A stretch of 20,172 nucleotides of DNA. Source: a virus. Location of the stretch: positions 1 to 20,172 of the IMG/VR virus record IMGVR_UViG_3300035181_000042, one strand, 5' to 3'. The translations under genes and the position numbers were made by a program. Every line of letters starts with the position of its first letter. Position 1 is the stretch's first letter. The notes below the pieces were generated by a model, which worked only from the letters and a program-made list of their open reading frames with translations, made no database searches and was not told the origin of the DNA. This document shows, one piece after another, positions 1 through 19,560 of this stretch.

Positions 1-879
1 GGCATATGTTGCTGCATTGCCAGCACCAACACCCATGGAGTTTAGCTTCCCTGCTACATTAAACTTGTCAACAGCATCACCAGCAGTATTCCCACCAGCT
101 ACCGCAGCGCCAATATTTATGAGTGCAGATACACCTTTGTTTGCGCCAAGGTCAGTTGCGGCGTCACCGCTGCCACCATCATATTTGCTGTACGCATCAG
201 CAGACATTTTTGATGCAAGAGCGACATTCCCAGATATGGCAGTGGCAAATATCTTTGCAGCAGTTACCCCTTTTTCTTGTGCTTCGGTCGTTTCTCTTGA
301 TAGCTTTTCGTCCCCAGTAATTTCTTGTACTCCATCACCAGAGCCACCAGTCCATCGACTATAAGCATCGGCATATGGTTTTGCACCCGCTAAAACAGAA
401 GCGGTATACATTCTTCCTACGTTTGAAAATGCTTTGGTTGGGTCTGTCTTTACGTCTTGATAAGCAGAATCAACCTTTTCTCCCCACTTAGATAGCCCAG
501 TTTTCCCGCGCTTCCACATATCGGCTGCATTAATATTTCTTGCGCCATCTACAGCGCTATCTCTTGTGTCTTGCCATGCGCGATTAGTTGAGTCACGACC
601 ATTTTTATAAACGTCATTGGCACTATTTGCACCATTTTTGTAAATATCATTCACGCCTTGGCCGAGGTTTGTAAAACCTTTTGATGGATCACGAACACCA
701 TCAATGAATGCGTTTGTAGAATGTTCAATCTGCTTTCCTGCAACTGACCCAGCATGTTCAAGGTCTTTGCCGGCACTGTCGGCAATTCGCGCAGCAGCCG
801 ATTCCGCTTCTTTACGCTTTTCATTCCAGTTATCTACTGTGCCAGTTATACTCCCACCCGGATCAGACCAAAAGCTCAT
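1..879 (-). CDS. Probable ejection/internal virion protein, partial (C-terminus beyond the window)
   Basis: The frame is open from an ATG at 879 to the left edge, giving 293 residues with no stop. AAGGAG lies 5 nt before the ATG, and the gene starts 9 nt after the stop of the 309-aa gene. The protein is rich in Ala, Gly, Asp, Ser and Asn. Residues about 60-120 carry a loose repeat (NDIYKNG, NDVYKNG, then DSTNRAW and DSAVDGARN). A second repeat, DAYSxxxGGSGD, occurs at about residues 171-182 and again 57 residues later. There is no signal peptide. Position after the nozzle-like and repeat-bearing genes, and the low-complexity helical character, suggest a protein stored in the head and ejected with the DNA. 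This is inference; no catalytic domain is visible in the part present. Confidence 0.85.
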   Translation of the reverse strand, partial: MSFWSDPGGSITGTVDNWNEKRKEAESAAARIADSAGKDLEHAGSVAGKQIEHSTNAFIDGVRDPSKGFTNLGQGVNDIYKNGANSANDVYKNGRDSTNRAWQDTRDSAVDGARNINAADMWKRGKTGLSKWGEKVDSAYQDVKTDPTKAFSNVGRMYTASVLAGAKPYADAYSRWTGGSGDGVQEITGDEKLSRETTEAQEKGVTAAKIFATAISGNVALASKMSADAYSKYDGGSGDAATDLGANKGVSALINIGAAVAGGNTAGDAVDKFNVAGKLNSMGVGAGNAATYA

Positions 880-6543: not shown

Positions 6544-7623
6544 TTAGGCTGACAGTGCGTTTGTTGCTACTTCATACACAGCCATCTGAAGGTTGTTCAG
6601 AATAACTGCATTGTAGTAGAACTTAGCGCCAACATAACCGCGTTGACCTTGTGGGTCGGCTTTGTCTTTCTGGCCTGGTGGCAAAGCAGTAATGTCTTTA
6701 CCGCCAACATTCACGCCGATATGACCCCAAGCATCAGCAGAGCCGACGATTACTTGGTACACGTCCGAGTAAGTGCCAGTTGTTGACAACAGAGCAGGAA
6801 CAGTGCCAGCAACAGCCGCGCCACCATCTTGAACTGCTACCAACTCAGGGCTAGAGATAAAGCGGAACTCTTCGCATGAACCGAACTCACCAGCTACAGC
6901 CTTGGTTGCAGAGCTGTATCTAGCAACAGGAACGAAGCCGGGCAAGTCACGCACGTCAGGGTGCAAGTCAGAAGAAATGAACACTGGGAAAGAACGCTCA
7001 ACAGCACTTGTGCCATACATACCAGTAGCTTCGATACGCTGAACCATTTGGCTGATTGGCTCGGCATGGTTAGCCGCCAAAGAACGTGCAATCTTACGCA
7101 GGCCAATTAAGCTGATAACGCCGTTTACAGTGGCGCGAGAGCTACCAGTGCCGCCGTAAAACTTGTTAGTGCAACCTTTCAATACGCCAAACAGAGCCAT
7201 TTCATGCACCAGACCAACACGCTCACCAGCCAATTCAGTCATTGCTTTTGGAATATCGTCTTCGTACAGTGAAAAAGTCTTATCTGTGTAGCCGTACAGT
7301 ACGTTGTACTGATTCAGCGTTGCAGTAATGTCTTGCACGGTTACTGTTTCAGCATTAGAAGTAACGCCTTCAGCAGTCAGATGATCGTTTGCGTATGAGT
7401 TTGCACGGTCTCCAGCGCCATCTTGGAAGAAGCGGTTAGGCTGCGCAGCAGTGGAACCTTTGCTTAGGAAACGACGATATTTAACTGTATCGCCACTGTT
7501 TGCTTTGAAGTCGTCATTTTGACCAACAGTACCCAAAACAATCTTGGGCATTGCATGTTTAAGAATACGACCTTTGATGATACCGACACGTTGAGGTGTC
7601 AAACTATAGGATTGAATTGCCAT
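6544..7623 (-). CDS. Major capsid protein, N4-gp56-like family
   Basis: A 359-residue protein starting at an ATG with GGAG 8 nt upstream. The N-terminal part has the pattern I know from the N4-gp56 group of HK97-fold coat proteins: an early KHAMPKIVLGTVGQ segment, then GDTVKYRRF (about residues 44-52), then LTAEGV (about 82-87) before a strand reading ETVTVQDITATLNQYN. The middle helix region (about 120-190) includes GLRKIARSLAANHAEP and the late part contains a surface-type VFISSDLHPDVRDLPGF. The C-terminus is hydrophobic. It forms the icosahedral shell. It follows the scaffold gene by 42 nt, a usual order, and its leader contains the GTCGAGA element. Confidence in the coat role is high and in the family name moderate to high. 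Confidence 0.93.
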   Translation of the reverse strand: MAIQSYSLTPQRVGIIKGRILKHAMPKIVLGTVGQNDDFKANSGDTVKYRRFLSKGSTAAQPNRFFQDGAGDRANSYANDHLTAEGVTSNAETVTVQDITATLNQYNVLYGYTDKTFSLYEDDIPKAMTELAGERVGLVHEMALFGVLKGCTNKFYGGTGSSRATVNGVISLIGLRKIARSLAANHAEPISQMVQRIEATGMYGTSAVERSFPVFISSDLHPDVRDLPGFVPVARYSSATKAVAGEFGSCEEFRFISSPELVAVQDGGAAVAGTVPALLSTTGTYSDVYQVIVGSADAWGHIGVNVGGKDITALPPGQKDKADPQGQRGYVGAKFYYNAVILNNLQMAVYEVATNALSA

Positions 7624-7665: not shown

Positions 7666-8529
7666 TTAACGTCTTGCCATTTCGGCTCTGTATGCGGCCT
7701 CTTCTTCGTCTGTCTCAGTCGATATTGCACGACCCTGAACACCACGCGGAATGATTGCCGACTCTAATGATTGCTTCTTCACTGCCTTTGGCTTGGTAGC
7801 TTCTTTAAACTCAGTTAGCTTGTCAGATATAAAATCAGCATCCCAACCGCTTATGAGTTGCTGCCTTACATCTTCCGGCTGACCATTTACCCACTGGCCG
7901 AACGCTGGATTTTTCCAGTTTACTCGTCCGTCCTGCATAGGCTCAAAAGCTGCCACCTCTCGCCAATCACGGTGATTACGGTTTAACGACCTTAGTTCTA
8001 ATGCTCGCTCTTTTTGTTCAATTCGATCCTCCAATGCTTGTACCTTTGGATTAACGTATTGATCAACCTGCGCAGCATCAAAACCTTGACCTCCGCTGCC
8101 CATGACGTCATTCAGGTCTTCGGCAAGCATTTCAGCAATTTCAGGAAACTCCTGGCTTAATCGCTTCAACTTGTCCGGCGACAACGAACCAACACGTTGC
8201 TGCTGAAGTTGTTCAATAATGCGCTGTTGATCAGCAAGTCTGCTTCCAAAAGTACCATTGGTCGTGTCAAGTGATTTTTGTAGCTTTGGCAGCATCGCCA
8301 ACGCAGAACCCAACTCTTCCTCTGTATAACCCTTAAAAATTTCCTTGCGCTCAACTACTGGTTCAATCACTTCAGGCTCTACTTGTGGCTCTGTCTCAGC
8401 TACCGGCGCTGGTGCGTCCTCGCTAAAGTCCTGTTGTGCCATCTCAGCTATATAAGCATCTTGCTCCGCCTTCTCTGCTACTTGTTCCGCGCTCATTTCT
8501 ACAACTTCATTTCCCTCTTTGATACTCAT
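7666..8529 (-). CDS. Scaffolding protein
   Basis: I place the start at the ATG at 8529, which has AGGAG 5 nt upstream and gives 287 residues. A GTG at 8556 would add nine residues but has no good site. The protein is acidic, low in aromatic residues and predicted mostly helical: an Ala/Glu-rich N-terminus, a Pro/Glu-rich linker (about residues 38-65), coiled-coil helices (about 95-195) and a basic stretch (KPKAVKKQS) before the C-terminal tail. Placement between portal and coat genes and this composition are typical of internal scaffolds that guide procapsid assembly and then leave. The motif AYxAEM is present near the N-terminus (residues 25-30) and again at the very C-terminus, a point discussed in the findings. 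Confidence 0.87.
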   Translation of the reverse strand: MSIKEGNEVVEMSAEQVAEKAEQDAYIAEMAQQDFSEDAPAPVAETEPQVEPEVIEPVVERKEIFKGYTEEELGSALAMLPKLQKSLDTTNGTFGSRLADQQRIIEQLQQQRVGSLSPDKLKRLSQEFPEIAEMLAEDLNDVMGSGGQGFDAAQVDQYVNPKVQALEDRIEQKERALELRSLNRNHRDWREVAAFEPMQDGRVNWKNPAFGQWVNGQPEDVRQQLISGWDADFISDKLTEFKEATKPKAVKKQSLESAIIPRGVQGRAISTETDEEEAAYRAEMARR

Positions 8530-8545
8530 TGACACTCCTTTTTCT

Positions 8546-8767
8546 TCAATTTTCACTAGCCTCTCGGTCAGTGATTGTTATAGCCGGATCGTTAAAACCC
8601 AGCAATTCTTTATAGGCTTCTATGCGCCCACGAAGACGGGCGGTGTCAAACTCGCTCAAGTCTCCGTCATTTCGTTTTCGTGCAACCTCAAGTCTTGACT
8701 CAAGATGCCCTGTTATTTTTTGCCACAAAGCAGAATCAAGCTCCTGATTGCTTAATTCAAAACTCAT
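8546..8767 (-). CDS. Small helical protein between portal and scaffold
   Basis: A 73-residue protein. Its ATG overlaps the portal stop as ATGA, so translation is probably coupled to the portal. The sequence is charged and helical, with LSNQELDSALWQKITGHLES followed by RLEVARKRN and a TARLRGRIEAYKELL helix. I have seen small proteins of this type (a W-containing helix, then a TARLRG helix) in this same slot in other short-tailed phages, always without a known function. A head assembly helper or portal-associated role is possible. Confidence 0.85.
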   Translation of the reverse strand: MSFELSNQELDSALWQKITGHLESRLEVARKRNDGDLSEFDTARLRGRIEAYKELLGFNDPAITITDREASEN

Positions 8768-11076
8768 TGCTGAAACGCCTTACCATCCTCGGCGCGGCCA
8801 CTCGGCTCAGTCGGCGGCGTCAATACCTGCTTTGAATGCCCGTCCATCATAGCAAGCTCTTTCTGTGTGCGAATTTTCATCGCAGTGTCAGCAAGCTTTG
8901 CCTTAACATCCTCAAGCTGCATTTTATTTTTATTCGCGTAATCCAGCATTGCAAGACGTTCACGCAGTTGCATCTCAGCCATACGCGCCTCGTAAGCATT
9001 CCGGTCACGATTTGCAATTGATTGGGTGTAAATCGTATCGCGGTCAGTGTCGTTCTGATCCATCTGCTCATCGTGATCAAGCTGCGCAACCATAATTTCC
9101 TGATCACTCTTAAGCTTTGCCGCAGAAAGCTTCTCAGCAGAAGCAGCACGAATCTGCGCGGCTTGAATCTGAGGTGCCGGCGCTGGCTGTTTCTGTGCGA
9201 TGGCTTTCTTCTCTTCGTCATCCATATCAAACTTGGAAGGTTCAAAGCGCCATGCACGTAACAACTCGTCCTTTGCTTTCTTGGGTGACATTTCAAATGC
9301 AGGGTTAAGTGACATTTGCAGAATTTGATTAGCCTGAACAGCTTGAATCTCACGCTCGACAAGAGCAGTTGAGCCAATAGCTTCAATCTTCAAGTCGCCC
9401 TTTTCGTCATCTTCACCATGGATCAATAGCCAATCGTGATAGCGACGAATATGCGGCTCGGTAACGCACTCATCGAATACGCGAGAAATACGACGCAATA
9501 GTGCGGAAGAGTTTTTATGCAACAACTCCATACCGCCAACTGTATCAGGGGCAGATCCTTGTTGACCTTGAAGCAGGAATGAAACGCCTGTAGCATCCTC
9601 CATCATCTTGTAAGCAAGTTGGATAACGCCGTTGATTTCAGCCTGCATTGATGGTATGACAACAGATAAGAATGCGTCGGCCACGCTCTTAACGTCAGCC
9701 TCTTCAGTCGCAATCCAGATTTTCCCAGCTACTAATGCCCAACTTCCGTCGGCAGGTCGAACAGCAGATTGACGAACGATTATCTGAGGCGCAGAACTTA
9801 GTCCCATATTGCTCATCAGCGCACGAGCCGAAGCATTCAGCATATCTTGAGGTACACGGCCTTGACGTGAAATACCAACACCCCAAGGTGAGTCAGGGAT
9901 GCGCTGCCAAGGCATAATGTCATACGGGAATTCACCGTTATCCAAAGGGTTCAAGAAACCCTTAACAACAGTGTCATTGATCATTACGATAACAGCAGGA
10001 ACAGCATCGCGCTCTATGTTATCTTCTTTAACAAATTTTGGGTCACACGCTTCAAGGTCATCAATATTTATGTCGCCAAAGAAGTAGAACACCTCAAAGC
10101 GGTCATCATCCTTAGTTGTTCCGTCTTGCCAAATACCGCCCTCTTTATTCTTTTTGCCGGGGCCTTCCTTTAATACCTTGTCGATATTCTCAGACAGATA
10201 ATCCGGCAACCCCTTCATATCACGCAATTGCCGCGCAGAAGCATAATCACGTTCGATTACATAGCCGCCATTCTGGATATTGTCACCACAATTTGAGTCA
10301 GGGAAGAAATTCCATGGACTAATACTCTTGCTTGACGGGACAATCTTCTCGCTGATTGCAAGCTGGCCGTTTAATACCACGCGGGATTTGCTTTTGCCCG
10401 GATACGCACCACGGATAATTCCAGTGCCAATCTTGGCAGAGCCATCAATAACCTTGCGCAGCTCAGAGTGATAACTACACTCTGTCAACCAGTCACGAAT
10501 GCGTGTCTCGCCCTTCTTTACCTTTTTAGATGCGTCCGCAAGTTCAGCTTCCGCAAACTGCCCCATTGTGTAAGGCGACCCATCTGGATTTGCTTTAGGC
10601 TGACCACTTGCAGGATCAACAACTTGCTGTGTGCTTTTCTTAATTGATTCCAGCTCTGGGACAGGAGTTGGCTTAATGGCGAAGTTCCAGTCGCCAGCAG
10701 GCAACAGAATGTCGCCCATACGTGCAGACGCAGAGTCAACAAATTGCCGTGTGATATTAAAGAATGCAGTTGCGCGTCCGCCGGTCTGCTTTTTATCGCC
10801 ACCGGATAGACCGCCTTCAGTTGACATTGATTTTGTAAAGACATTGCCTTGACGGTTTAGATCGTCAATGCCAAGGTAGTATTCTTCGTCTTCTTTCCAG
10901 ATACGCTCGATTCCAGATTGCTTTCGAGCGTCAACAGCCTCATCGCGTTTCTTCGCAACGATAGTGCCAAGCGCATTGATACGCTCGGCTTTCTTTAATC
11001 TTTTGAGTTCAATTACCTGCCGAATTTCTTCTGGCAGGTCTTCAAACTTTGCTGATTGTGTAGCGGCTGCATTCAC
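8764..11076 (-). CDS. Portal protein
   Basis: A 770-residue protein starting at a GTG (11076) with AAGGA about 8 nt upstream. It forms the dodecameric ring at one capsid vertex through which DNA is packaged. Supporting features: the N-terminal helical part with RIWKEDEEYYLGIDD (about residues 62-76); RQFVDSASARMGDILLPAGD (about 112-131); a SPWNFFPDSNCGD core segment; the MPWQRIPDSPWGVG turn; a FLLQGQQGSAPDTVGGMELL stretch in the stem or crown region; and a long charged helical C-terminus (about 629-745) like the barrel helices of P22-type portals. Length matches large podovirus portals. It follows a promoter-like element by about 70 nt, and its stop overlaps the next gene. The out-of-frame long ORFs inside it are shadows. 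Confidence 0.93.
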   Translation of the reverse strand: MNAAATQSAKFEDLPEEIRQVIELKRLKKAERINALGTIVAKKRDEAVDARKQSGIERIWKEDEEYYLGIDDLNRQGNVFTKSMSTEGGLSGGDKKQTGGRATAFFNITRQFVDSASARMGDILLPAGDWNFAIKPTPVPELESIKKSTQQVVDPASGQPKANPDGSPYTMGQFAEAELADASKKVKKGETRIRDWLTECSYHSELRKVIDGSAKIGTGIIRGAYPGKSKSRVVLNGQLAISEKIVPSSKSISPWNFFPDSNCGDNIQNGGYVIERDYASARQLRDMKGLPDYLSENIDKVLKEGPGKKNKEGGIWQDGTTKDDDRFEVFYFFGDINIDDLEACDPKFVKEDNIERDAVPAVIVMINDTVVKGFLNPLDNGEFPYDIMPWQRIPDSPWGVGISRQGRVPQDMLNASARALMSNMGLSSAPQIIVRQSAVRPADGSWALVAGKIWIATEEADVKSVADAFLSVVIPSMQAEINGVIQLAYKMMEDATGVSFLLQGQQGSAPDTVGGMELLHKNSSALLRRISRVFDECVTEPHIRRYHDWLLIHGEDDEKGDLKIEAIGSTALVEREIQAVQANQILQMSLNPAFEMSPKKAKDELLRAWRFEPSKFDMDDEEKKAIAQKQPAPAPQIQAAQIRAASAEKLSAAKLKSDQEIMVAQLDHDEQMDQNDTDRDTIYTQSIANRDRNAYEARMAEMQLRERLAMLDYANKNKMQLEDVKAKLADTAMKIRTQKELAMMDGHSKQVLTPPTEPSGRAEDGKAFQQ

Positions 11077-11123
11077 TATTTTTATCCTTCTGCGGGAGCC
11101 ACAATTTGCATTGCGTTCAAGCG

Positions 11124-11136
11124 CGTTATCACAACG
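11124..11136 (-). promoter_or_regulatory. Stem-loop at predicted transcript start, portal promoter
   Basis: The transcript strand reads CGTT GTGAT AACG: 4 pairs and a 5-nt GTGAT loop. It begins about 6 nt after the predicted start of transcription. The counterpart near 16815 has CGCT GTGAT AGCG, so one pair has changed from C-G to T-A while pairing and loop were kept. Confidence 0.5.
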
Positions 11137-11148
11137 GGCTTGTGTCTG

Positions 11149-11176
11149 ATTGTAGTCAGGTAAAATTAAAATGCAA
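11149..11176 (-). promoter_or_regulatory. Predicted sigma70-type promoter for the portal/capsid block
   Basis: On the minus strand a -35-like TTGCAT (11176-11171) and a -10-like TACAAT (11154-11149) are separated by 16 bp, with CTGAC before and CAG after the -10. The element lies in the only real gap between the tail cassette and the portal gene. It matches two other sites in the window in hexamers, spacing and flanks. The start of transcription would be near 11142, giving a leader of about 65 nt. Confidence 0.65.
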
Positions 11177-11188
11177 TAGATTAATCAA

Positions 11189-11305
11189 CTATCTGCGCCC
11201 CATTTTCCTTGCCAGCCAGACACCACTAACAACCTCAATGATGCCGCCAAAGAAATTCCAAGCGTCTGTGCTAAATGAGCTAGTGCTAAACGAATTATCA
11301 TCCAC
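11189..11305 (-). CDS. Small protein downstream of the tail fibre, 38 aa
   Basis: An open frame starting at GTG 11305, which overlaps the end of the tail fibre gene by 8 bp, and ending at TAG 11189. GGGGAT lies about 9 nt upstream of the GTG. The protein has a Ser/Thr/Phe repeat (SFSTSSFST, residues 5-13), a hydrophobic amphipathic stretch from W16 to A32 with WNFFGG, and a basic end (RKMGRR). It could be a short membrane or virion-associated peptide. I do not recognise it. Support comes from the tight overlap, the plausible start site and the fact that it fills most of an otherwise unexplained gap. It is short enough that chance cannot be excluded. Confidence 0.5.
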
Positions 11306-14300
11306 GCCATTTATCCCCAGAAGTTCCCGTACCTAATACCGTGGCACCATTCATCTTCTTAACATCAGCCTGCAAAGCTGTACCTGTAAATGTCAATGGG
11401 TTTGTCTTCGACTCCACCGCCGTTAGCTGCGCCGCCTGCCCTGCTGTTAATCCTGAGCCACTGGAATAAGGTATGGCGTGATCTGGTGACGGGAATATAC
11501 TACCGCCGGTTGTGTCAATAATATCCTTGACCAAGCCAGTTGATGAACTGCGCCCGTACCCGCCTGTTATTGTCAAAGCCGCTACCGGACTAGAGGTATT
11601 CTTTATCTTAAATGAGGATACCAGGTAATTAGCGGTATCAGGGGAGCTGATAAAGTTACCTTGGTCAATAATACCAGCCGAAGTTGATAGCCAGTACGCT
11701 TGGTATGCGTATATCTGAGGCCATGTTACGCTGGCGGCTGTAATGTTCAATAGGAAGCTGGAATCAATAATCGACATTCCAGTAATCAAAGACCCATCGA
11801 GAGCATTTGTGTTGTATGTTGTATCTAGTGTCTGAGACGCCAGATAGGTTAAGTCTTTATTTGTGGACAATATCCCTACAGTTCCAATCGCCGCATCTAC
11901 AAATTGATACGCAGTTGCGCCTGACACGTTCGCCAGCCGGATACGAATAGCACGAGATGCTGTGGCAGCAGCCGTATCTGTCCATGTAGCCGTAGTGCCT
12001 GCAACCACTGCGTTATAAAGTTCCGTTCCAGTTGTAGTGCTATACACTTGTACTCGACTACCTGCTACCAATCCGTTGACTGTGACAGACTGATACAAAA
12101 CTACAGCGGGAACGAATGTCGTACCATCATCAGCCGTGAAAGTATCGAAACTCGCATGAGGTGTTACACCGTCAGCCCGTACTACTCTAACGCCCTTGGT
12201 CGCTGCACCTGTACCCCCGTAAGTAGCTCCGTTTACAGTCTTGAAGCTGGAACCGTTCTTTTGTACTAAGTCGTGATAGTTGAAGTTATTTAGTCCTCTG
12301 AAATATTGGAGCACCTGGGTTCCACTGAGCGCATCACCTGTGTCTGTGATGGTCAGGCTAAACACTTTACCATTCCATGTGACGGGAGTAGCGCCATGGT
12401 CTGTTAGTGTTGCGCCAGTGATTGTTGCAGCGCCGATACCGTTTGCGACTGGGTTTAGTCCAACTACATAAAGCTGGTCTTCGAGATTGCCATATAGCGA
12501 GACTGCGTTTGCCTCTCCTTGGTCGTAACCGTTCTCTTGTGCTTTCAGCGCCAAGAACCCACGATAGTCATAGCCGTCTGTGTAAATCCCATCCCCATTT
12601 GGGTCGCTCAGTATTTGTACGAGCTGATCTATATTGCCTGTAGTCGCCGCGCTTGATACCGCGCCGCCGTTGATTTGTTCGAACCTTACTTGTCTACCAG
12701 ATGGTACGCCAGACGATAGAACTGCTGCCCATATCGCCGTTACATTGCCCGAAGTATTTAGGTAGCGTAATCCGTCACGACTAAGTAGGGCTATGCTTGG
12801 TGCGCCGAATACCCAACCACTGCCTAGCGTGAACGAGTTAGGGCCATTCACTAGAAGTGGGAAGGCTGTATTCGCCAGCGCTGACTGATTGCGCCATGAC
12901 TGAATCATAAAACTATACCAATTTTGTACGGTACTCGCTACGGTAATGGTAAACGTCTTTGTGCCAGTAGTAACAGTTGCGGTAGTCCCGAAGGTTAGGC
13001 CACTTGGCGTTACGTAAGTTCTGTCAATTACATGGTTAATTGGTGTAGCCAGTACACTCGTGGTCAGTAAAATCCCAGTTACACGAATTGGCACGTACCC
13101 ATCTTTGAAGATGGTGTAGTCAACTGTTATATCAGTAACGCGGGTCTGGGAGAATGTCTCACTCGTTGCGCTGTTGGTTGTGCTGAATAGCTCTGTAGTT
13201 GTCGCGGTAGTAAATACTTTTACCTGCGAGCCAGCAGTTAATCCGGTGAATGCTAGTCCTTGCGAGACAACGGGGGCACTCACTGTTATTGCGCCGCCTG
13301 TATTATTCGAAGTTATGTAAGTCGTCCCTGCTGGCAGTTGTACCGTAATTGCATAAGCATTTTTATTGCGCAGATCAACTGTGCCAGTAAATGTGCCGGA
13401 ACTCATATTGTAAGTGCTTGCGGCAGTCGGGGCCATGGAGTAGATTGTAGATCCGCCCATACCCAAAGTATAAGTACCCGCCGCACCGATATTTAACTGC
13501 CCACCGTTTACCGTTGGAACAGTAGTAAGTTGTGACCAAGTGCCGCCTGTGTATGTGTAAGCAATCAGCCCAGCTAGTTCAGAGCTTAATGTGTATGACC
13601 CCATGCTGATTGAGCCAGCACCGTTTAGCTTATATCCTGTGGTGATTGTAACATTACCTTGTGCGGATAATGCGGGGCTTCCAGCTACACCAGCGCCTGT
13701 AAGAGGTGGAGCACTAGCAAGGTTCAAACATGCTTGATATTGGGTGTAGTCGTATAAATACTGAAATGTTTTATCTGCACTGAATGCCGTAATACTTGAG
13801 GTTGCGCCCCATGAAACAGTAACCCCAGAATAAGTTTGCGCTGTGGCTTCGTTTGCGCTAGTGGTGATATTCACTGTGCGCTTGGGGTTGGCCTCATCAA
13901 ATACAAACCCATAATGCCGGGCTTTTGTAACCATTGGGTCGAGCGCTATGCCATCCCAATAGACCTTACCTGTAGTAACAGCAGACTGAACTGAAAAAGT
14001 AATCGTAATCTGGCCGTCTGCGCCACTTGAGTTAGTGATTGACTTATCAATCAAGTTCCACACGCCTGCGTTAGCTGACGCTGCTGTATATACAACAGGA
14101 GTCAGAATAACACCATTGATAGTGCCTGATAGAGTCATTGTTGGTGCGACAAAACCTGTGCCTGCGTTGTAATAGGCTGAGTCATACTGACAATAACCCA
14201 CTATACGTACTGTCTCACCATTCGAGACGTTTATAACAGTAGCCTTAGTGAATGAAGTATTGGTTGTGGACGGCTTCATACTCATTGATGAAGTTGATCG

Positions 14301-15767
14301 TTTAGCCGTGCTATTATTGCGCTCTACGGTTCCGTCTCGATACCACTCTTCTTGCAGGGTAACGTCTGAATTTCTATTTTTTACTATAATGTAGCCAACA
14401 GACGAAAGGAGTTTTTGTGATGCTTGATCCAGCATTGCTGGGATTGTGCCCATGGCACAATCAGTAAAGGATGCTTTGCAGCTAGTTGCGTAGGACTGTG
14501 TTGCTACTAGGTTTGCAAGTCCACCTCCAAACGACGTCATGTCGCAGTTCCTATAATCTATCTGTATAAAATACGCTACCAATGCTCTTACCACTCTTGC
14601 GTTCGTCGCAGTACACACTACCTTTACTGAGTCTATGACGGCCCCTGCGCCAGCCCCTTCGTACGAAGAAACAGAGCCGTTTGAAGAGGTGCATATATAC
14701 CCACCTGTGATTGTAGTCCCCAGCATACTACGGCTATCTAATGGGTACATTGCAGCGAACATACAGTTGTTAAATTGACAGTAACCACCGTCAAAAAGTG
14801 CTTGTGTTGATTCTCCTGCCCCAACTGATAAAATAGCGCAGTTATCAAACTTCAGTCTTGTAGCACAAGAACCGCTGTAGGTGTGTGGGTACAGGCTATA
14901 TCCAGAGGTGCTCCTATTGACGTAGGCCACGCTCTCCATGTACTTAAACAAGTTCGGCCAAGGGGTATCTGTGTAGTTTGCGTCCTGCCCAAACTCGACA
15001 CCATAAGTCTCGTAAACGCTACCAACACTATCTACTGAACAATACCCCCATTCGAGTGAAGCCGCGATTGTTGAGGTATTAATCTCCACATAAAATGTGT
15101 ATGGATAAGTTCTGTTGAATGCGTCGATTGTTACGTTACTGGTAATATTTGATACTGGCGCATTTATCGCGTGGGCATACGTTGTAGCTACTGTTAGCGG
15201 GACGGTTGTGCCACCCCCGTAGGTTCCAGCAATAATTCTCACGTCAACAGAGTTACCTGTCGTAGATGTGCTTGGTAGATAAACTTCATCACCTATCTTC
15301 CATCCTGTAGCGTCTGCAACAGTGATGCTGGTAGCGCTCGCTGCTACTGCTGAAGCTAGAGTTGTTATTCTCTTCTTGGTAGCCCCGAATATTTTACTGA
15401 TTGAGCCGGCCTTATACTGGATACCAAATTCATTCTCTTGTAGCGTCGCTGACTTGTTAAGCAATATTTTAGCGGTATATGGCAGAGGTATTGGTGAAGC
15501 GAATGAACCCATATCATGCGTAGAGCCCAGCGCGAATATAATTTTACCAACACATGTAAGCTGAGTGGACGCAGATCGACTGTGTGACAATGTACCGTTT
15601 ACTGTAATGGCAGAGGATGTATCATCCCCCCACTCAAAAGTTCCATTCAATGTGACCACATGGCCTGCTGCAATAGTTACGTTGTCGCCTGTAACAGGGA
15701 CAACCCCGCCTACCCAAGTTCCAGTGGCAGACGCAAGACCTGTAGCGGCAGATGTTATGGATGCCAT
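11298..15767 (-). CDS. Large tail fibre/tailspike-like protein (1489 aa)
   Basis: This is the largest gene in the window. The ATG at 15767 overlaps the stop of a 15-codon ORF as TAATG and has no clear ribosome-binding site of its own. The N-terminus has a beta-solenoid entry pattern ([25 protein letters not shown]; residues about 16-43). Residues about 230-460 look like a right-handed parallel beta-helix with recurrent Asn/Asp-Cys turns (FDNCAIL, FNNCMFA, YRNCDMT, FTDCAMG). Residues about 500-605 resemble a jelly-roll carbohydrate-binding domain ending in [11 protein letters not shown] module with GLxAGSxVxVxxTxTxTEL occurs twice, near residues 840 and 1230. The C-terminus ends with [21 protein letters not shown] broken by Gly, like other fibre ends. 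It probably binds or cleaves a host surface glycan. I cannot point to catalytic residues. Confidence 0.88.
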
Positions 15768-15814
15768 TAGCTAACTACCGTTGCGATGATAGGGGTTATG
15801 AGTGAGACTGGCAT
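15767..15814 (-). CDS. 15-codon leader ORF coupled to the tail fibre gene
   Basis: ATG at 15814 is preceded by AAAGGA with about 6 nt spacing, a good ribosome-binding site. The frame encodes [15 protein letters not shown] and its TAA shares its last base with the first base of the tail fibre ATG. The tail fibre start itself has only a weak site. The arrangement fits a translated mini-ORF that delivers ribosomes to the large gene. The peptide is hydrophobic, but its sequence may not matter. An alternative is a remnant of a deleted gene. Confidence 0.45.
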
Positions 15815-15875
15815 GGGTTATCCTTTATGCGTCAGAGAGTCGTGAGGTAGCTAGATAGCTGCCGTGCAGGACTAC

Positions 15876-16403
15876 TTAAGCAGCCAGCTTTGCAATATCA
15901 GCCTTAACTTTAGCCAAGCGCTTCTCAGCGGAATCAGCCTCAGCAAGAACAAGTGCCTTGTTATTCGCTAACAACACAACATCACCAGCTAGTGCTTCGA
16001 TCTTACTGGTTAGGCTTTCGATCTTGGAATTCAGCTCGGACACTTTAGTTTGCGCAGTTGCTACCGCGTCAGTCTTCATCTTCTCGGCCTTCTCAGCAGC
16101 ATCAACCAGCTTGCCGGCAACAGCGGTATCAGCAGTCGCAAGAACGTCAGAAGCTTTCTCATTGGCTTTTGCAATAATATCAGCCGCATCAGCCTTTGCT
16201 TTCTTAACCTGCTCTTTAACCTTGACCATTTCATCAAGGTTTTCATCGCGCTCTTTCAGCGCAGCATTGGCTTGCAGCTTGTATTCTTTCGCGGCCTGCT
16301 CAAGCGAGCCAACCTCATCGAGCACTTTTGCAGCGCCCATCATTGCTTCATATTTCACGGCGGCACGTTTCAGCGTATCGGCAGCTTCTTTGTATTTGCT
16401 CAT
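15876..16403 (-). CDS. Coiled-coil protein of the tail cassette, 175 aa
   Basis: The ATG at 16403 follows AAGGAAAATCCC. Nearly the whole protein is Ala/Lys/Glu-rich helix with few aromatic residues or prolines, a typical long coiled coil; the segment SELNSKIESLTSKIEALAGD (about residues 122-141) shows clear heptads. No signal peptide or membrane segment is present. It lies between the 122-aa protein and the giant fibre gene and probably shares their transcript. It may be an assembly helper or oligomerisation partner for the fibre, or a minor virion protein; nothing in the sequence decides this. The long plus-strand frames opposite it reflect its biased composition. Confidence 0.85.
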   Translation of the reverse strand: MSKYKEAADTLKRAAVKYEAMMGAAKVLDEVGSLEQAAKEYKLQANAALKERDENLDEMVKVKEQVKKAKADAADIIAKANEKASDVLATADTAVAGKLVDAAEKAEKMKTDAVATAQTKVSELNSKIESLTSKIEALAGDVVLLANNKALVLAEADSAEKRLAKVKADIAKLAA

Positions 16404-16413
16404 GGGATTTTCC

Positions 16414-16782
16414 TTATGTTCTCAATGGAGTTGCACGGCGAGCGACAATTGACACAGTGACAGCGGCAGCAGTGCCGGGTATGGTCAGACGCGGTTGAAC
16501 GTATCGCGTTAATTCAACGATAGACTCAATGTCGTTTGCGGATTTTGAAATTGCAACGCCCTGAATATCAGTAAGCGGCACATAAACCGAGCCATCGTTC
16601 GATCCCTCAATGGCAGCAGTAGCGCCACCCCATGAGAGTGACTGGAATAATGCAGTTCGATCCGCCCAAGAGATGCCGATAATCGGCGCGCCAGTAGTAT
16701 CAGCGGTTGTTAGATTCCAAGAGATTAGAAAGACCGAGCCATCGCCCGATATATCTTTGGTTGTTGGTGCGACAATAGCCAT
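16414..16782 (-). CDS. Probable beta-sandwich virion protein, 122 aa
   Basis: The first gene after the predicted promoter at 16859-16832; its ATG at 16782 follows AAGGA with 8 nt spacing. The protein is beta-rich and has a pattern I recognise from small phage proteins found near tail fibre genes: ISWADRTALFQS, then an IEGSNDGSVYVPLTDIQG block (about residues 58-75), then ESIVELTRYVQPRLT, and a final short strand ending in Arg-rich residues. Such proteins are normally annotated hypothetical. A surface or decoration-like domain is likely from the fold type. It is separated by 10 nt from the coiled-coil gene. Confidence 0.85.
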   Translation of the reverse strand: MAIVAPTTKDISGDGSVFLISWNLTTADTTGAPIIGISWADRTALFQSLSWGGATAAIEGSNDGSVYVPLTDIQGVAISKSANDIESIVELTRYVQPRLTIPGTAAAVTVSIVARRATPLRT

Positions 16783-16807
16783 AATAATTTTCCTTCGAAG
16801 GGATTAG

Positions 16808-16822
16808 TCGCTATCACAGCGA
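16808..16822 (-). promoter_or_regulatory. Stem-loop at predicted transcript start, tail cassette promoter
   Basis: The transcript strand reads TCGCT GTGAT AGCGA: 5 pairs with a GTGAT loop. It lies within a few nucleotides of the predicted transcription start (about 16825). A second, related stem-loop with the same loop stands in the same place at the portal promoter. Confidence 0.5.
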
Positions 16823-16831
16823 GTTGTCCTG

Positions 16832-16859
16832 ATTGTAGTCAGGAGTAATTGAATTGCAA
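16832..16859 (-). promoter_or_regulatory. Predicted sigma70-type promoter for the tail cassette
   Basis: On the minus strand TTGCAA (16859-16854) and TACAAT (16837-16832) are separated by 16 bp. The -10 lies inside an inverted repeat, TCCTGA-CTACAA-TCAGGA (16844-16827), which could be an operator or just part of the promoter. It occupies the 84-bp gap after the terminase large subunit, and matches the sites at 11176 and 19627. Confidence 0.65.
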
Positions 16860-16866
16860 GCGTTAT

Positions 16867-18375
16867 TTAGTAGCCCATTGAACTAACTGAAACCTCGTAT
16901 TCAGGGATATTTAATTGAAGCAAAGCATCTGGTCTAATAGGCATTGCCCAAGTCAAAGCGAGAGCATCCCCAAAGTCGGGAGACCTAATGCCGCGCTTCT
17001 TTGCATCGTCCTTGCTTTCTAGTTTTAGCCGGCCATGGCTGTCATAGCTGTAGCGCAAGCCGCATAAATCAGCCTGCAATGCGTCATCATCAGGAAGTTG
17101 AACAGGTGGAGAACTTAGCCATTCCTTCATCAACCCCCACATTTCAGCGCGTTTGTTCACAAACTTTGTCTGGTCAAGCGCCTTCTCGCCAAAGTTTACA
17201 GCCCGACACTCTTTGTAATTCAACTCTTTTAGCCTGTCATATACTCCGGCACCAATTCCGCCAACGTCAATAAATACGGCGTCAGGCTTAAACTTCTTGA
17301 TGGATTGCAGCACAAGACCAACAACCTGCATCGTGTCCTTCCCTTGAACCGTCTCAATTATCTCAACGGTTCTGCCTTGCCTGATTACGATTACAGTCCT
17401 GTCCTCACCGAATCTTGCAGGATCAACGCCTATAATCTTGGCTCCATCGGCAACAGCTACCGCCTTTCTTGCTCTTGCTACCATGTCATGCTGAATAAGA
17501 GTCTTGTCGTCCGACACGCTAAATGCTTCTGCCGGAGTTGACGGGTACTCTTTCATAAACTGCTTTTCATCAGCCATTTCACTGATTTTCAGCCTACGCC
17601 ACATCATTTGTTGCTCATCTAAATCATATAGCTCACCGTAAGCGCGATCCTCTTCGCTTAGTACAACACCTTCTGCACGATACTCTTGTTGCCAGTGCCA
17701 CGGCACAAATATAGCCTGCCATCCTCCGCCACCGACCTCGCCCTGCTGCCATATTTTATGGAATACGTTACCTATCCCGTCTGCCGTAGATTCGAATATA
17801 ACCTCTGTGCCAGGCAATCTTGGGACGGTCTGCATAATTCCGGCTAAATGTTCCTCGGCGCTCGGCCAGTACGCGACCTCCGAACCAAGTAGATATTGCG
17901 CGGTAGCTGACCGGCCTGCACCTCTATTGCCAGCCGTGGCAACTTTATACCCACTATCCAGCTTTGAAAATGATAATTCCTTTGCGTTAGCTGCCCCCAG
18001 TGTCGGACGCATATCCTCTGGGTAGTTCTCTAAGTAACGGTTGGTCATACCGAACAGGTTATCGGTTGCGCTCTGCTCGTGAGTCAGTATGTAAGTCTGC
18101 TTGCCAAAGTTCATTACAGTTTTCCAGAAGAACCGGCCAGTGACATAGGTTGAGCAACCCTGCTGCCGCCCCTTAAGAATGACAGCGCGAACCATCCCTG
18201 TCTCTTTAAGCTGCGCCTCTAGTCTTTCGTGAATATACAACTGTGCTTTATTAAAGCTGAACGGCGAGATTTCGCCAGATTTGTTACGTATCTTCAGGAA
18301 GTTTCTGGCGTACTGTTCAAAGTCGCCCTTTAGTACGCGCAGCTTATCTCTTACCGCTAACTCAGATGATGTCAC
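16867..18375 (-). CDS. terL: Terminase large subunit
   Basis: A 502-residue packaging ATPase and nuclease. It starts at GTG 18375, overlapping the small subunit by 14 bp, with GAGG about 9 nt upstream. The ATPase domain has a deviant Walker A KGRQQGCST (residues 68-76), a Walker B-like YLLGSEVAYW (161-170, with E166 the likely catalytic Glu) and a coupling motif ESTADG (195-200). The nuclease domain shows the RNase H-type acidic residues D318 (IIGVDPARFG), D370 (AVFIDVGG) and D467/D470 (SPDFGDA). It docks on the portal and drives DNA into the procapsid, then cuts it. All expected motifs are present, so it should be functional. Length is normal for the family. Confidence 0.96.
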   Translation of the reverse strand: MTSSELAVRDKLRVLKGDFEQYARNFLKIRNKSGEISPFSFNKAQLYIHERLEAQLKETGMVRAVILKGRQQGCSTYVTGRFFWKTVMNFGKQTYILTHEQSATDNLFGMTNRYLENYPEDMRPTLGAANAKELSFSKLDSGYKVATAGNRGAGRSATAQYLLGSEVAYWPSAEEHLAGIMQTVPRLPGTEVIFESTADGIGNVFHKIWQQGEVGGGGWQAIFVPWHWQQEYRAEGVVLSEEDRAYGELYDLDEQQMMWRRLKISEMADEKQFMKEYPSTPAEAFSVSDDKTLIQHDMVARARKAVAVADGAKIIGVDPARFGEDRTVIVIRQGRTVEIIETVQGKDTMQVVGLVLQSIKKFKPDAVFIDVGGIGAGVYDRLKELNYKECRAVNFGEKALDQTKFVNKRAEMWGLMKEWLSSPPVQLPDDDALQADLCGLRYSYDSHGRLKLESKDDAKKRGIRSPDFGDALALTWAMPIRPDALLQLNIPEYEVSVSSMGY

Positions 18376-18757
18376 GTAGCAATTCCTCGATCCCTACCGT
18401 TATCTTGCCGGAGTGTTCGACCAACTGCTTATCAAGTCCGGCCAACTTCGCCTTCCCCATTGTTGCGGCAACCGCAGCGCTACTTTGTGGAGTCGGGGCA
18501 GTCATTGCAACTTGCCGCGCCTCTTCTAGCTCTGCCATAAGTGAATCAACTGTCACGTCATTACGTTTTGCAGCTTGATTCCTTAAAAAATCAAGACGTT
18601 CCGTTATATTACCGCCTTGCATTAATTCAAAAGCTTTAACTCGTATTGTTTCATCCTTCATTTTGCTGGCATTATATGACTTACGATACGCCTCGCTTGC
18701 ATTGCCTAACTCCATGAATGCAAGGCAGAAATTCTCTTGCTTTTGTGTCAGCGCCAT
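18362..18757 (-). CDS. terS: Terminase small subunit
   Basis: A 131-residue protein whose ATG shares one base with the stop of the DUF551-like gene (TAATG); AAGGAA lies upstream. The N-terminus LTQKQENFCLAFMELGNASE followed by AYRKSYNA is the classic DNA-binding helix-turn-helix entry of the Terminase_2 type. A central helical region (ERLDFLRNQAAKRNDVTVDS) and a Glu/Ala-rich oligomerisation helix follow, and the last part (KITVGIEELLRDII) probably contacts the large subunit. It recognises the packaging site in phage DNA. Its place directly before terL fits. Confidence 0.92.
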   Translation of the reverse strand: MALTQKQENFCLAFMELGNASEAYRKSYNASKMKDETIRVKAFELMQGGNITERLDFLRNQAAKRNDVTVDSLMAELEEARQVAMTAPTPQSSAAVAATMGKAKLAGLDKQLVEHSGKITVGIEELLRDII

Positions 18758-19017
18758 TACTCAGCTTCCTTTAATGCAACGGGTAAGTTAGGCAGCGGCA
18801 TCCAGTGGGATGGCTCATAAGTATCCCCCGAAATATCGCGCCACTGCCCTATTGAATCATCCCACCACAATACGACACGACATAAACAATCTACACACAA
18901 TATTGAATCACCATCCTTCGGCGCTGTTTCAATAGGTTGCCACGCTGGGGCTACATCAAAATCCAGATACTCACAACCCTCTGTGAGCTTGAGAATGTCT
19001 TTACAGGCTATACGCAT
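18757..19017 (-). CDS. DUF551-like protein
   Basis: An 86-residue protein whose ATG lies 2 nt after the stop of the 68-aa gene. The pattern WQPIETAPKDGD (residues about 26-37), then a VVLWWDD strand and a final PSHWMPLPNLP (about 69-79), is characteristic of the DUF551 group of small phage and prophage proteins. Their function is not known. There is no strong ribosome-binding site close by (GGAG about 14 nt away), so coupling with the preceding gene is likely. The N-terminal 25 residues (ACKDILKLTEGCEYLDFDV) are outside the recognisable domain. Confidence 0.85.
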   Translation of the reverse strand: MRIACKDILKLTEGCEYLDFDVAPAWQPIETAPKDGDSILCVDCLCRVVLWWDDSIGQWRDISGDTYEPSHWMPLPNLPVALKEAE

Positions 19018-19019
19018 GG

Positions 19020-19226
19020 TTAAGCTTTCATCTCCGCACGATAAGCATCGTCTTCTTCAGCTTTTGCGCGTTTCTGGCTCGCAAGGAAGTCATCCATGCT
19101 CATGGGGTCTTCCCCATTTGTTTGGGTTTCGATCACATAGCGCTTGTATGCCTGGTCATTCTGAATTGAATTGGCCGCCTTGCGTACCATTCCCGTCCCC
19201 ATTGGTGCATCTGATGCTTTTGCCAT
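19020..19226 (-). CDS. Small polar protein, 68 aa, with scaffold-like C-terminal motif
   Basis: ATG at 19226 with TAGGAG 5 nt upstream, a good start. The protein is polar, Ala/Asp/Glu/Lys-rich and probably partly helical. The central part reads AYKRYVIETQTNGEDPMSMD. It ends in EEDDAYRAEMKA, nearly the same as the C-terminal end of the scaffold (EEEAAYRAEMARR). I recognise no family. The shared end suggests it may bind the same partner as the scaffold. Confidence 0.82.
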   Translation of the reverse strand: MAKASDAPMGTGMVRKAANSIQNDQAYKRYVIETQTNGEDPMSMDDFLASQKRAKAEEDDAYRAEMKA

Positions 19227-19260
19227 ATCGACTCCTAATTTGATTCGTAAATACTTTTGG

Positions 19261-19560
19261 TTATGCAGCCATTTCCTGTTCGAAAGCCTTCTGTTCTTCT
19301 TGCTTCGCCGGTGCGCCCATTTGATTTGTCAGGCTGTCGGCTATTTGCTTGATGATACTCAGCGCCTCATTAATATTTCTTGCAGGAGTTTTGCCCCCTT
19401 CCGCGCCTTCTTCACCCTCAAGGCCAACGGTCATTGATCCATCATCACCGATAACCAATTCAATGGTCGTACTGCCAGCTTCAGCCTGTTCTTGTGGTTC
19501 TTGTGGTTCTTGTGGCATTCCCTGTGGCATTCCTTGTGGCGCTTGTTGCGGCATGTCCAT
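19261..19560 (-). CDS. Pro/Gln-rich small protein, 99 aa
   Basis: ATG at 19560, with AAGGGA at about 9 nt, located in the last codons of the preceding gene. The first 27 residues consist of MPQ/GMPQ/EPQ-type tripeptide repeats, encoded by imperfect 9-bp DNA repeats, and are surely disordered. A short beta-type segment (TIELVIGDDGSMTVGLEG, about residues 32-49) and a helix (about 63-80) follow. The C-terminus EEQKAFEQEMAA resembles the tail of the 68-aa protein and of the scaffold. A predicted promoter lies shortly upstream inside the preceding gene. Function unknown. Confidence 0.82.
   Translation of the reverse strand: MDMPQQAPQGMPQGMPQEPQEPQEQAEAGSTTIELVIGDDGSMTVGLEGEEGAEGGKTPARNINEALSIIKQIADSLTNQMGAPAKQEEQKAFEQEMAA
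19491..19547 (-). repeat. 9-bp imperfect tandem repeats coding for PQ-type tripeptides
   Basis: The 5' end of the 99-aa gene holds about six imperfect tandem units of 9 bp with a GAACCACAA-like or GGAATGCCACAA-like pattern on the coding strand. The units keep the frame. Copy number is likely to vary between relatives. Confidence 0.75.

Follow-up and report, generated by a model that had tools for sequence, protein, structure and literature searches.

A short acidic motif shared by both ends of an N4-type scaffolding protein and by small-protein tails as a putative docking tag for procapsid assembly

A 20,172-base virus record (the window, meaning here the whole stretch of DNA that was analysed) encodes a scaffolding protein that carries the short motif A-(Y/F)-x-x-E-M near its N-terminus and again at its C-terminus, together with two small proteins, otherwise unlike it, that end in the same motif. 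Across relatives the motif is conserved and changes in concert in three places, namely the N-terminal region of the scaffold, its C-terminus and the tail of a small protein. We read the motif as a docking tag for procapsid assembly, which would take the form of a short acidic amphipathic helix. Its core follows Asp or Glu and opens with a residue that is aromatic or large and hydrophobic; two variable positions separate this from a small or acidic residue, and another hydrophobic one closes the core. With one tag per end, each on a flexible linker, a single scaffold molecule would bridge two coat subunits. Proteins of the family to which the 99-aa protein belongs, with a single C-terminal tag, would be brought to the scaffold's sites inside the procapsid and would occupy them without bridging, perhaps as minor scaffolds, regulators or enclosed cargo; the 68-aa protein of the window may use the scaffold's tag too. 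As the receiver of the tag, the basic N-terminal arm of the coat protein is the most likely candidate. We put the probability of this explanation as a whole, with the tag at both scaffold ends and on both small proteins and the coat arm as the likely receiver, at about 0.6. Its general form, a single shared and co-evolving docking partner, appears well supported by the sequences, and its specific form, in which that partner is the coat N-terminal arm, is likely but unproven.

Carriers of the motif in the window

The genes of the window lie on the minus strand, where small genes are followed by those for the terminase small and large subunits, a large tail-fibre-like gene, the portal, a 73-aa gene, the scaffold, the major coat protein and head-tail parts. 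Between terminase and portal, positions 11298-15767 hold a gene for a 1489-aa repetitive, probably tail-fibre-like protein and two small genes, an unusual break in the head module. The scaffold gene (7666..8556, minus strand) lies between the portal and coat genes, a position that it keeps in about 70 relatives. Its product has no family match in Pfam or PHROGs, but fits a scaffolding protein because of its gene position and its acidic, helix-rich make-up, and the equivalent gene of StenR_269 is annotated as a scaffolding protein. A GTG at 8556 opens the frame, giving 296 aa; since the methionine at codon 10 is nearly invariant in 45 relatives, the true start is probably the in-frame ATG at 8529.

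Within this protein, the putative N-terminal docking motif EQDAYIAEMAQQ (8466-8431, minus strand) comprises residues 31-42, at a position that is conserved in relatives, and the putative C-terminal docking motif EEEAAYRAEMARR (7707-7669, minus strand), also conserved and co-varying with the N motif, comprises the last 13 residues. In an AlphaFold 2 model the scaffold is an acidic helical protein with disordered linkers. Both motifs fall in predicted helices (residues 23-40, with a pLDDT of 81 for the block, and 281-295, with a pLDDT of 84-86), and low-confidence stretches separate each of these from the helical body, an arrangement that would suit a two-headed connector. A Foldseek comparison of the model with the PDB returned nothing significant. 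The remaining two copies, both likewise putative docking tails on the minus strand, are EEDDAYRAEMKA (19058-19023) on the 68-aa protein and EEQKAFEQEMAA (19299-19264) on the 99-aa protein. All four copies are thus present and placed as the preliminary description had them; the observation was right, if understated, as the motif extends well beyond the window.

The strength of the two small-protein tails was assessed using a motif profile derived from relatives' scaffold ends, with the tails of 5647 antisense open reading frames as the null set. The 99-aa tail scored 14.7 bits and the 68-aa tail 27.4 bits, the latter slightly favoured by the inclusion of the window scaffold's own motifs in the profile, against a 99.9% quantile of 4.3 for the null. 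The tail of a relative that lies outside the profile (L022) scored 26.1 bits, to the same effect as the 68-aa score. One null tail exceeded both small-protein scores; at 28.6 bits it equals the score of the window's scaffold, and it is most likely the scaffold itself, drawn from the window's own record (L001). No other open reading frame tail in the window scored above 1.6 bits with the profile. In almost all of the genomes scanned, only the scaffold and the small protein or proteins were among the best sense-strand matches, and in the wide-clade genomes examined (L036-L053) the scaffold and the homologue of the 99-aa protein were the two plus-strand frames with high-scoring tails.

Concerted change across relatives

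Relatives were gathered with the coat protein from viral contigs, annotated phages and bacterial genomes. Near-clade scaffolds carry A-[FY]-x-A-E-M in their N-terminal region and close with A-[FY]-[RK]-x-E-M after a stretch of acidic residues, and in the wide clade D-x-F-x-x-G-F is found at both ends. Further switches likewise affect both ends of a scaffold: GL occurs at both in one well-supported subclade of the coat tree (L035, L050, L063 and L068), EL at both in L027, and the aromatic residue is replaced by M at both ends in L028 and by L at both ends in L076; a W flavour of the motif is seen in L145, L150 and L151. Proviruses provide a series of N- and C-terminal pairs, including AFDEIAQSID and DFDAIAAEID in L147, VFAQAAGAADARL and AFSRAAADADKRL in L148, LWDEMAQKDNAA and SWNHFAAKDREAA in L151, and FDQAWNDVEE and FDEAWDEIDD in L153. 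Among 84 non-redundant representatives, the N motif matched the C motif of its own genome with a score of 27.3, compared with 20.0 for those of other genomes (z = 14.6), and the own-genome match held in the 32 proviruses taken alone (z = 9.4). When tails were shuffled within single genomes, the match was not significant one by one in 27 of 55 representatives, and the strength of the result lies in the cross-genome test, not in the single-genome shuffles. There are exceptions: the N motif is weak or does not match in L067, L073 and L102, and in some others (L049, L052) the F of the C motif stands opposite an L in the N motif.

Gene conversion between the scaffold ends was considered and rejected: identical residues are encoded by identical codons in 140 cases, with 136 expected from codon usage, and this lack of excess indicates that the likeness of the two ends is kept by protein-level selection and not by recent copying. 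The portal protein (8764..11076, minus strand; a match to the SU10 portal family) was likewise set aside as a further carrier. Its C-terminus, GRAEDGKAFQQ in the window (8767-8799), follows a pattern, GRAxxGxA(F/Y)xx, that is conserved in most relatives, is alike in the EM and GF clades and does not switch with the motif; it appears to be a separate C-terminal signal.

The 99-aa protein (19261..19560, minus strand) has a Pro/Gln-rich acidic start, a beta-hairpin (TIELVIGDDGSMTVGLE), a helix (NINEALSIIKQIADSL) and the putative docking tail, as judged from its sequence pattern. Homologues of the same architecture occur in about 15 divergent viruses: they are found in L016 and L022 and, by way of a profile, in the wide clade, and a widened search recovered relatives in L062, L058, L076, L084, L068, L125, L139, L005 and L002, together with phage Rollin (L098), in which an 82-aa protein of the family follows the coat gene. 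Two of these, in L068 and L098, are among those recognised by their tails and linked to the family by architecture, a weaker ground than a profile match. Their common pattern is a beta-hairpin around IxIxxxxDGxxxV, a helix and the tail, in most cases after an acidic start rich in Pro, Ala and Met. The window's protein has no match in Pfam or PHROGs and its relatives have only sub-threshold ones; on the basis of sequence, the 99-aa protein is a member of an unnamed, fast-diverging head-module family.

The tails of these small proteins follow the flavour of the scaffold in the same genome, whether EM, GF, GL, LxxGF or AFxxRR. Thus EM is found in L016 and L022, GL in L068 and LxxGF in L076, and the tail AADAAFKSRRGDK of L139 (AFKSRR) faces the scaffold end AADKAFQARRQR (AFQARR). 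The match of a tail to its own scaffold was 50.0, compared with 37.4 when permuted (p = 1e-5; 14 genomes, a set found partly by tail likeness, so that the test is somewhat favoured). For the profile-found members of L046 and L125, the own-scaffold match ranks only 6-7 of 14, and every profile-found member of the EM and GF flavours has a tail of the same class as the scaffold in its genome. Many relatives have no small tagged protein in the stretch covered. The agreement between small-protein tails and scaffolds supports one shared docking partner.

The suggestion in the preliminary description that both small proteins belong to head assembly therefore stands for one of them: the tails of the scaffold and of the 99-aa protein are conserved in relatives, the motif recurs at the C-termini of the 99-aa homologues in related phages, and such conserved, co-varying tails, together with the tracking of the coat N-terminal arm described below, place the 99-aa protein with head assembly and support the docking reading for it. 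The 68-aa protein (19020..19226, minus strand) is an orphan, with a tail as on the scaffold and with relatives among near-identical contigs only. It matches no known family in Pfam or PHROGs, and searches of phage records with the 68-aa and 99-aa proteins found no match. For the 68-aa protein, only the tail points to a possible role in head assembly and to possible docking. The same protein contains PMSMDDFLASQ (19074-19106), which resembles the MSDxDFL motif of N4-type scaffolds and is possibly a second copy, possibly chance.

The coat N-terminal arm and other readings

The major coat protein (6544..7623, minus strand) is of the N4 gp56 type with an HK97 fold (phrog_1357, E = 2.3e-52). It matches the solved coat proteins of N4, Moo19, B2 and DEV in sequence (PDB sequence E = 1e-15 to 1e-12), and its AlphaFold model matches the fold of solved N4-type coat proteins (Foldseek E = 1.7e-21). 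A candidate partner was sought by correcting the likeness of motifs between genome pairs for the overall similarity of their coat proteins and comparing it with every column of the coat alignment, using the scaffold body as a control. Of the 20 coat columns that best track the C motif, ten lie within residues 1-50 (in residues 14-48), as do six of 20 for the N motif and two of 20 for the scaffold-body control. When 686 portal columns were added, the strongest contiguous window for both motifs was coat residues 1-25. The charges tend to be opposite: no other 23 residues in a row of the window's coat protein are as basic as 8-30 (net charge +5), and among 68 genomes the arm is positive in 64 and the scaffold tail negative in 54. 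We therefore propose the arm (residues 1-50; 7474..7623, minus strand) as the most likely docking site, a choice that would agree with the way in which the scaffold C-termini of 80alpha and P22 meet the coat N-terminal arm (PMC5644958; PMC12005531). The effects are small (r up to about 0.2) and genome pairs are non-independent, so that p-values are too optimistic; we accordingly regard the arm as the best candidate, not as an established site. As for the earlier suggestion of a docking peptide for the coat protein or another head part, the conservation of the scaffold and 99-aa tails, their co-variation across lineages and the concentration of tracking residues in the arm give it strong indirect support; physical binding, the arm as partner and the role of the small proteins after docking are inferred.

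The tag might instead dock into a scaffold core, with the scaffold ends making scaffold-scaffold contacts and the small proteins travelling as co-packed cargo. The window's N motif, AYIAEM, resembles the hydrophobic-A-E pattern of the T4 capsid targeting sequence. That sequence is common to otherwise unlike internal proteins and directs them into the scaffolding core (PMC3012670). Such tags, however, are N-terminal on their cargo, whereas the small proteins here are tagged at the C-terminus, and motif similarity tracks columns of the coat arm, in a test in which the scaffold body served as a control variable only; we consider this reading unlikely. A partner at the unique vertex, such as the portal, to which the tag would recruit scaffold and small protein at the nucleation site, has a precedent in the P22 scaffold hooks, which touch both portal and coat (PMC12005531). 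A few columns of the portal also follow the motif, and window 97-121 of that protein comes close behind the coat arm, but the arm gives the strongest contiguous signal for both motifs and the portal's own conserved C-terminus does not co-vary, which makes such a partner improbable.

Two further readings concern the nature of the motif itself. A tag for a protease, raised in the preliminary description, or for degradation would find some echo in the EM clade, where YIAE and FLAE in the N-terminal copies are similar to I/L-x-E, the cleavage signal of the T4 prohead protease. That signal is not matched by YRAE, found in the C-terminal copies, or by the GF, GL and W flavours, and the motif is wholly different from one lineage to the next. 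Nor was a prohead protease recognised in the window's head module or in the gene tables of annotated relatives (the head genes of L002 and L096-L106; the 'peptidase' annotated in L002 lies downstream, among tail genes). We consider this proposal very improbable. A likeness arising from composition, in which acidic, Ala-rich C-termini have come to look alike by chance or because they aid solubility in general, seems to us the least credible: both scaffold ends are acidic and of low complexity, and shuffled tails sometimes equal the observed match, as noted above, but the idea is contradicted by the cross-genome permutation, by the antisense null and by lineage-specific switches such as W in L145, L150 and L151 and AFxxRR in L139.

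Docking to the coat arm remains our preferred reading. More tentatively, and as a proposal that we hold at somewhat short of even odds, N4-type viruses may use a private, lineage-specific address code inside the procapsid, in which the scaffold ends and the virus's own small proteins share an evolving tag read by the lineage's own coat. The tag would direct the small proteins to the head, where they would serve as cargo or assembly regulators, and a newcomer could enter the system by acquiring it, as the 68-aa orphan may have done.

Comparison with known systems

N4 gp57 (phrog_2120) resembles the window's scaffold in its position between portal and coat genes and in its matching end motifs, and differs in the sequence of those motifs, which at both ends of gp57 and its relatives is MSDE(D/E)(I/F) or a close variant. 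Its gene (L101:32884-34101), just upstream of the coat gene, is annotated as a 'tail length tape measure protein'. Because of gene position and the double-ended motif, gp57-type proteins are probably scaffolding proteins, and the tape-measure name looks wrong. No tagged small protein was found in the N4-type stretches scanned, and the virion RNA polymerases of N4 and StenR_269, considered as tagged cargo, have no matching C-terminus. In a faecal phage (L107:9041-11064), the scaffold N-terminus MKKELLKKLHTHMFDGE is nearly alike the coat N-terminus MNRDYLKKLHTQMFDVE, as if using the same site.

How N4-type scaffolds hold the coat appears to be undescribed in the literature. The capsid papers on N4, DEV and Moo19/B2 concern virions, and the DEV and Moo19/B2 texts describe no scaffold docking; the literature searched, with most subscription journals outside its coverage, contained no account of an N4-type phage with matching docking motifs at the two ends of the scaffold or with a small co-carrier of this kind. 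A co-varying tag would offer a testable docking site, name the scaffold for the whole group (N4 gp57 included), assign an unnamed small-protein family to the head and provide a natural peptide with which selected proteins could be packed into the procapsids of laboratory phages.

The T4 capsid targeting sequence is an N-terminal tag, aimed at the scaffold core and cleaved. Like the tag of T4 internal proteins (PMC3012670) and the capsid targeting region of P1 DarB (PMC9024508), the motif described here would bring otherwise unrelated proteins to the procapsid, but the small proteins bear it at the C-terminus and the same tag is found on the scaffold itself. The pairing of scaffold C-terminus and coat N-terminal arm by charge, proposed here from sequence, has its counterpart in P22 with the signs reversed: there a basic hook meets an acidic arm, whereas here acidic tails would meet a basic one. 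To our knowledge, P22 has no matching N-terminal copy of the motif and no small co-carrier. Its scaffold does contact the coat N-terminal arm through a C-terminal hook, by charge (PMC12005531).

The closest parallel in kind is that of 80alpha and the satellite SaPI1, in which the phage scaffold and CpmB share a C-terminal RIIK helix-and-hook that docks on the coat N-terminal arm and the A/P cleft (PMC5644958). As there, one short motif stands at the C-terminus both of the complete scaffold and of a small protein that is otherwise unlike it. CpmB, however, comes from a phage-hijacking satellite, whereas the small proteins here are the phage's own; the motif sequence, its charge, the two-ended scaffold and the lineage-wide co-variation also differ, and no size redirection is apparent here. 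The tails contain no RIIK, and are acidic with AYxxEM or a related motif. By analogy, these tags would work like the RIIK tail of 80alpha and CpmB and the T4 targeting sequence, and are a member of neither by sequence or tag position. The kind of device is thus known, and its use with a double-ended scaffold and the phage's own small co-carrier appears to be new.
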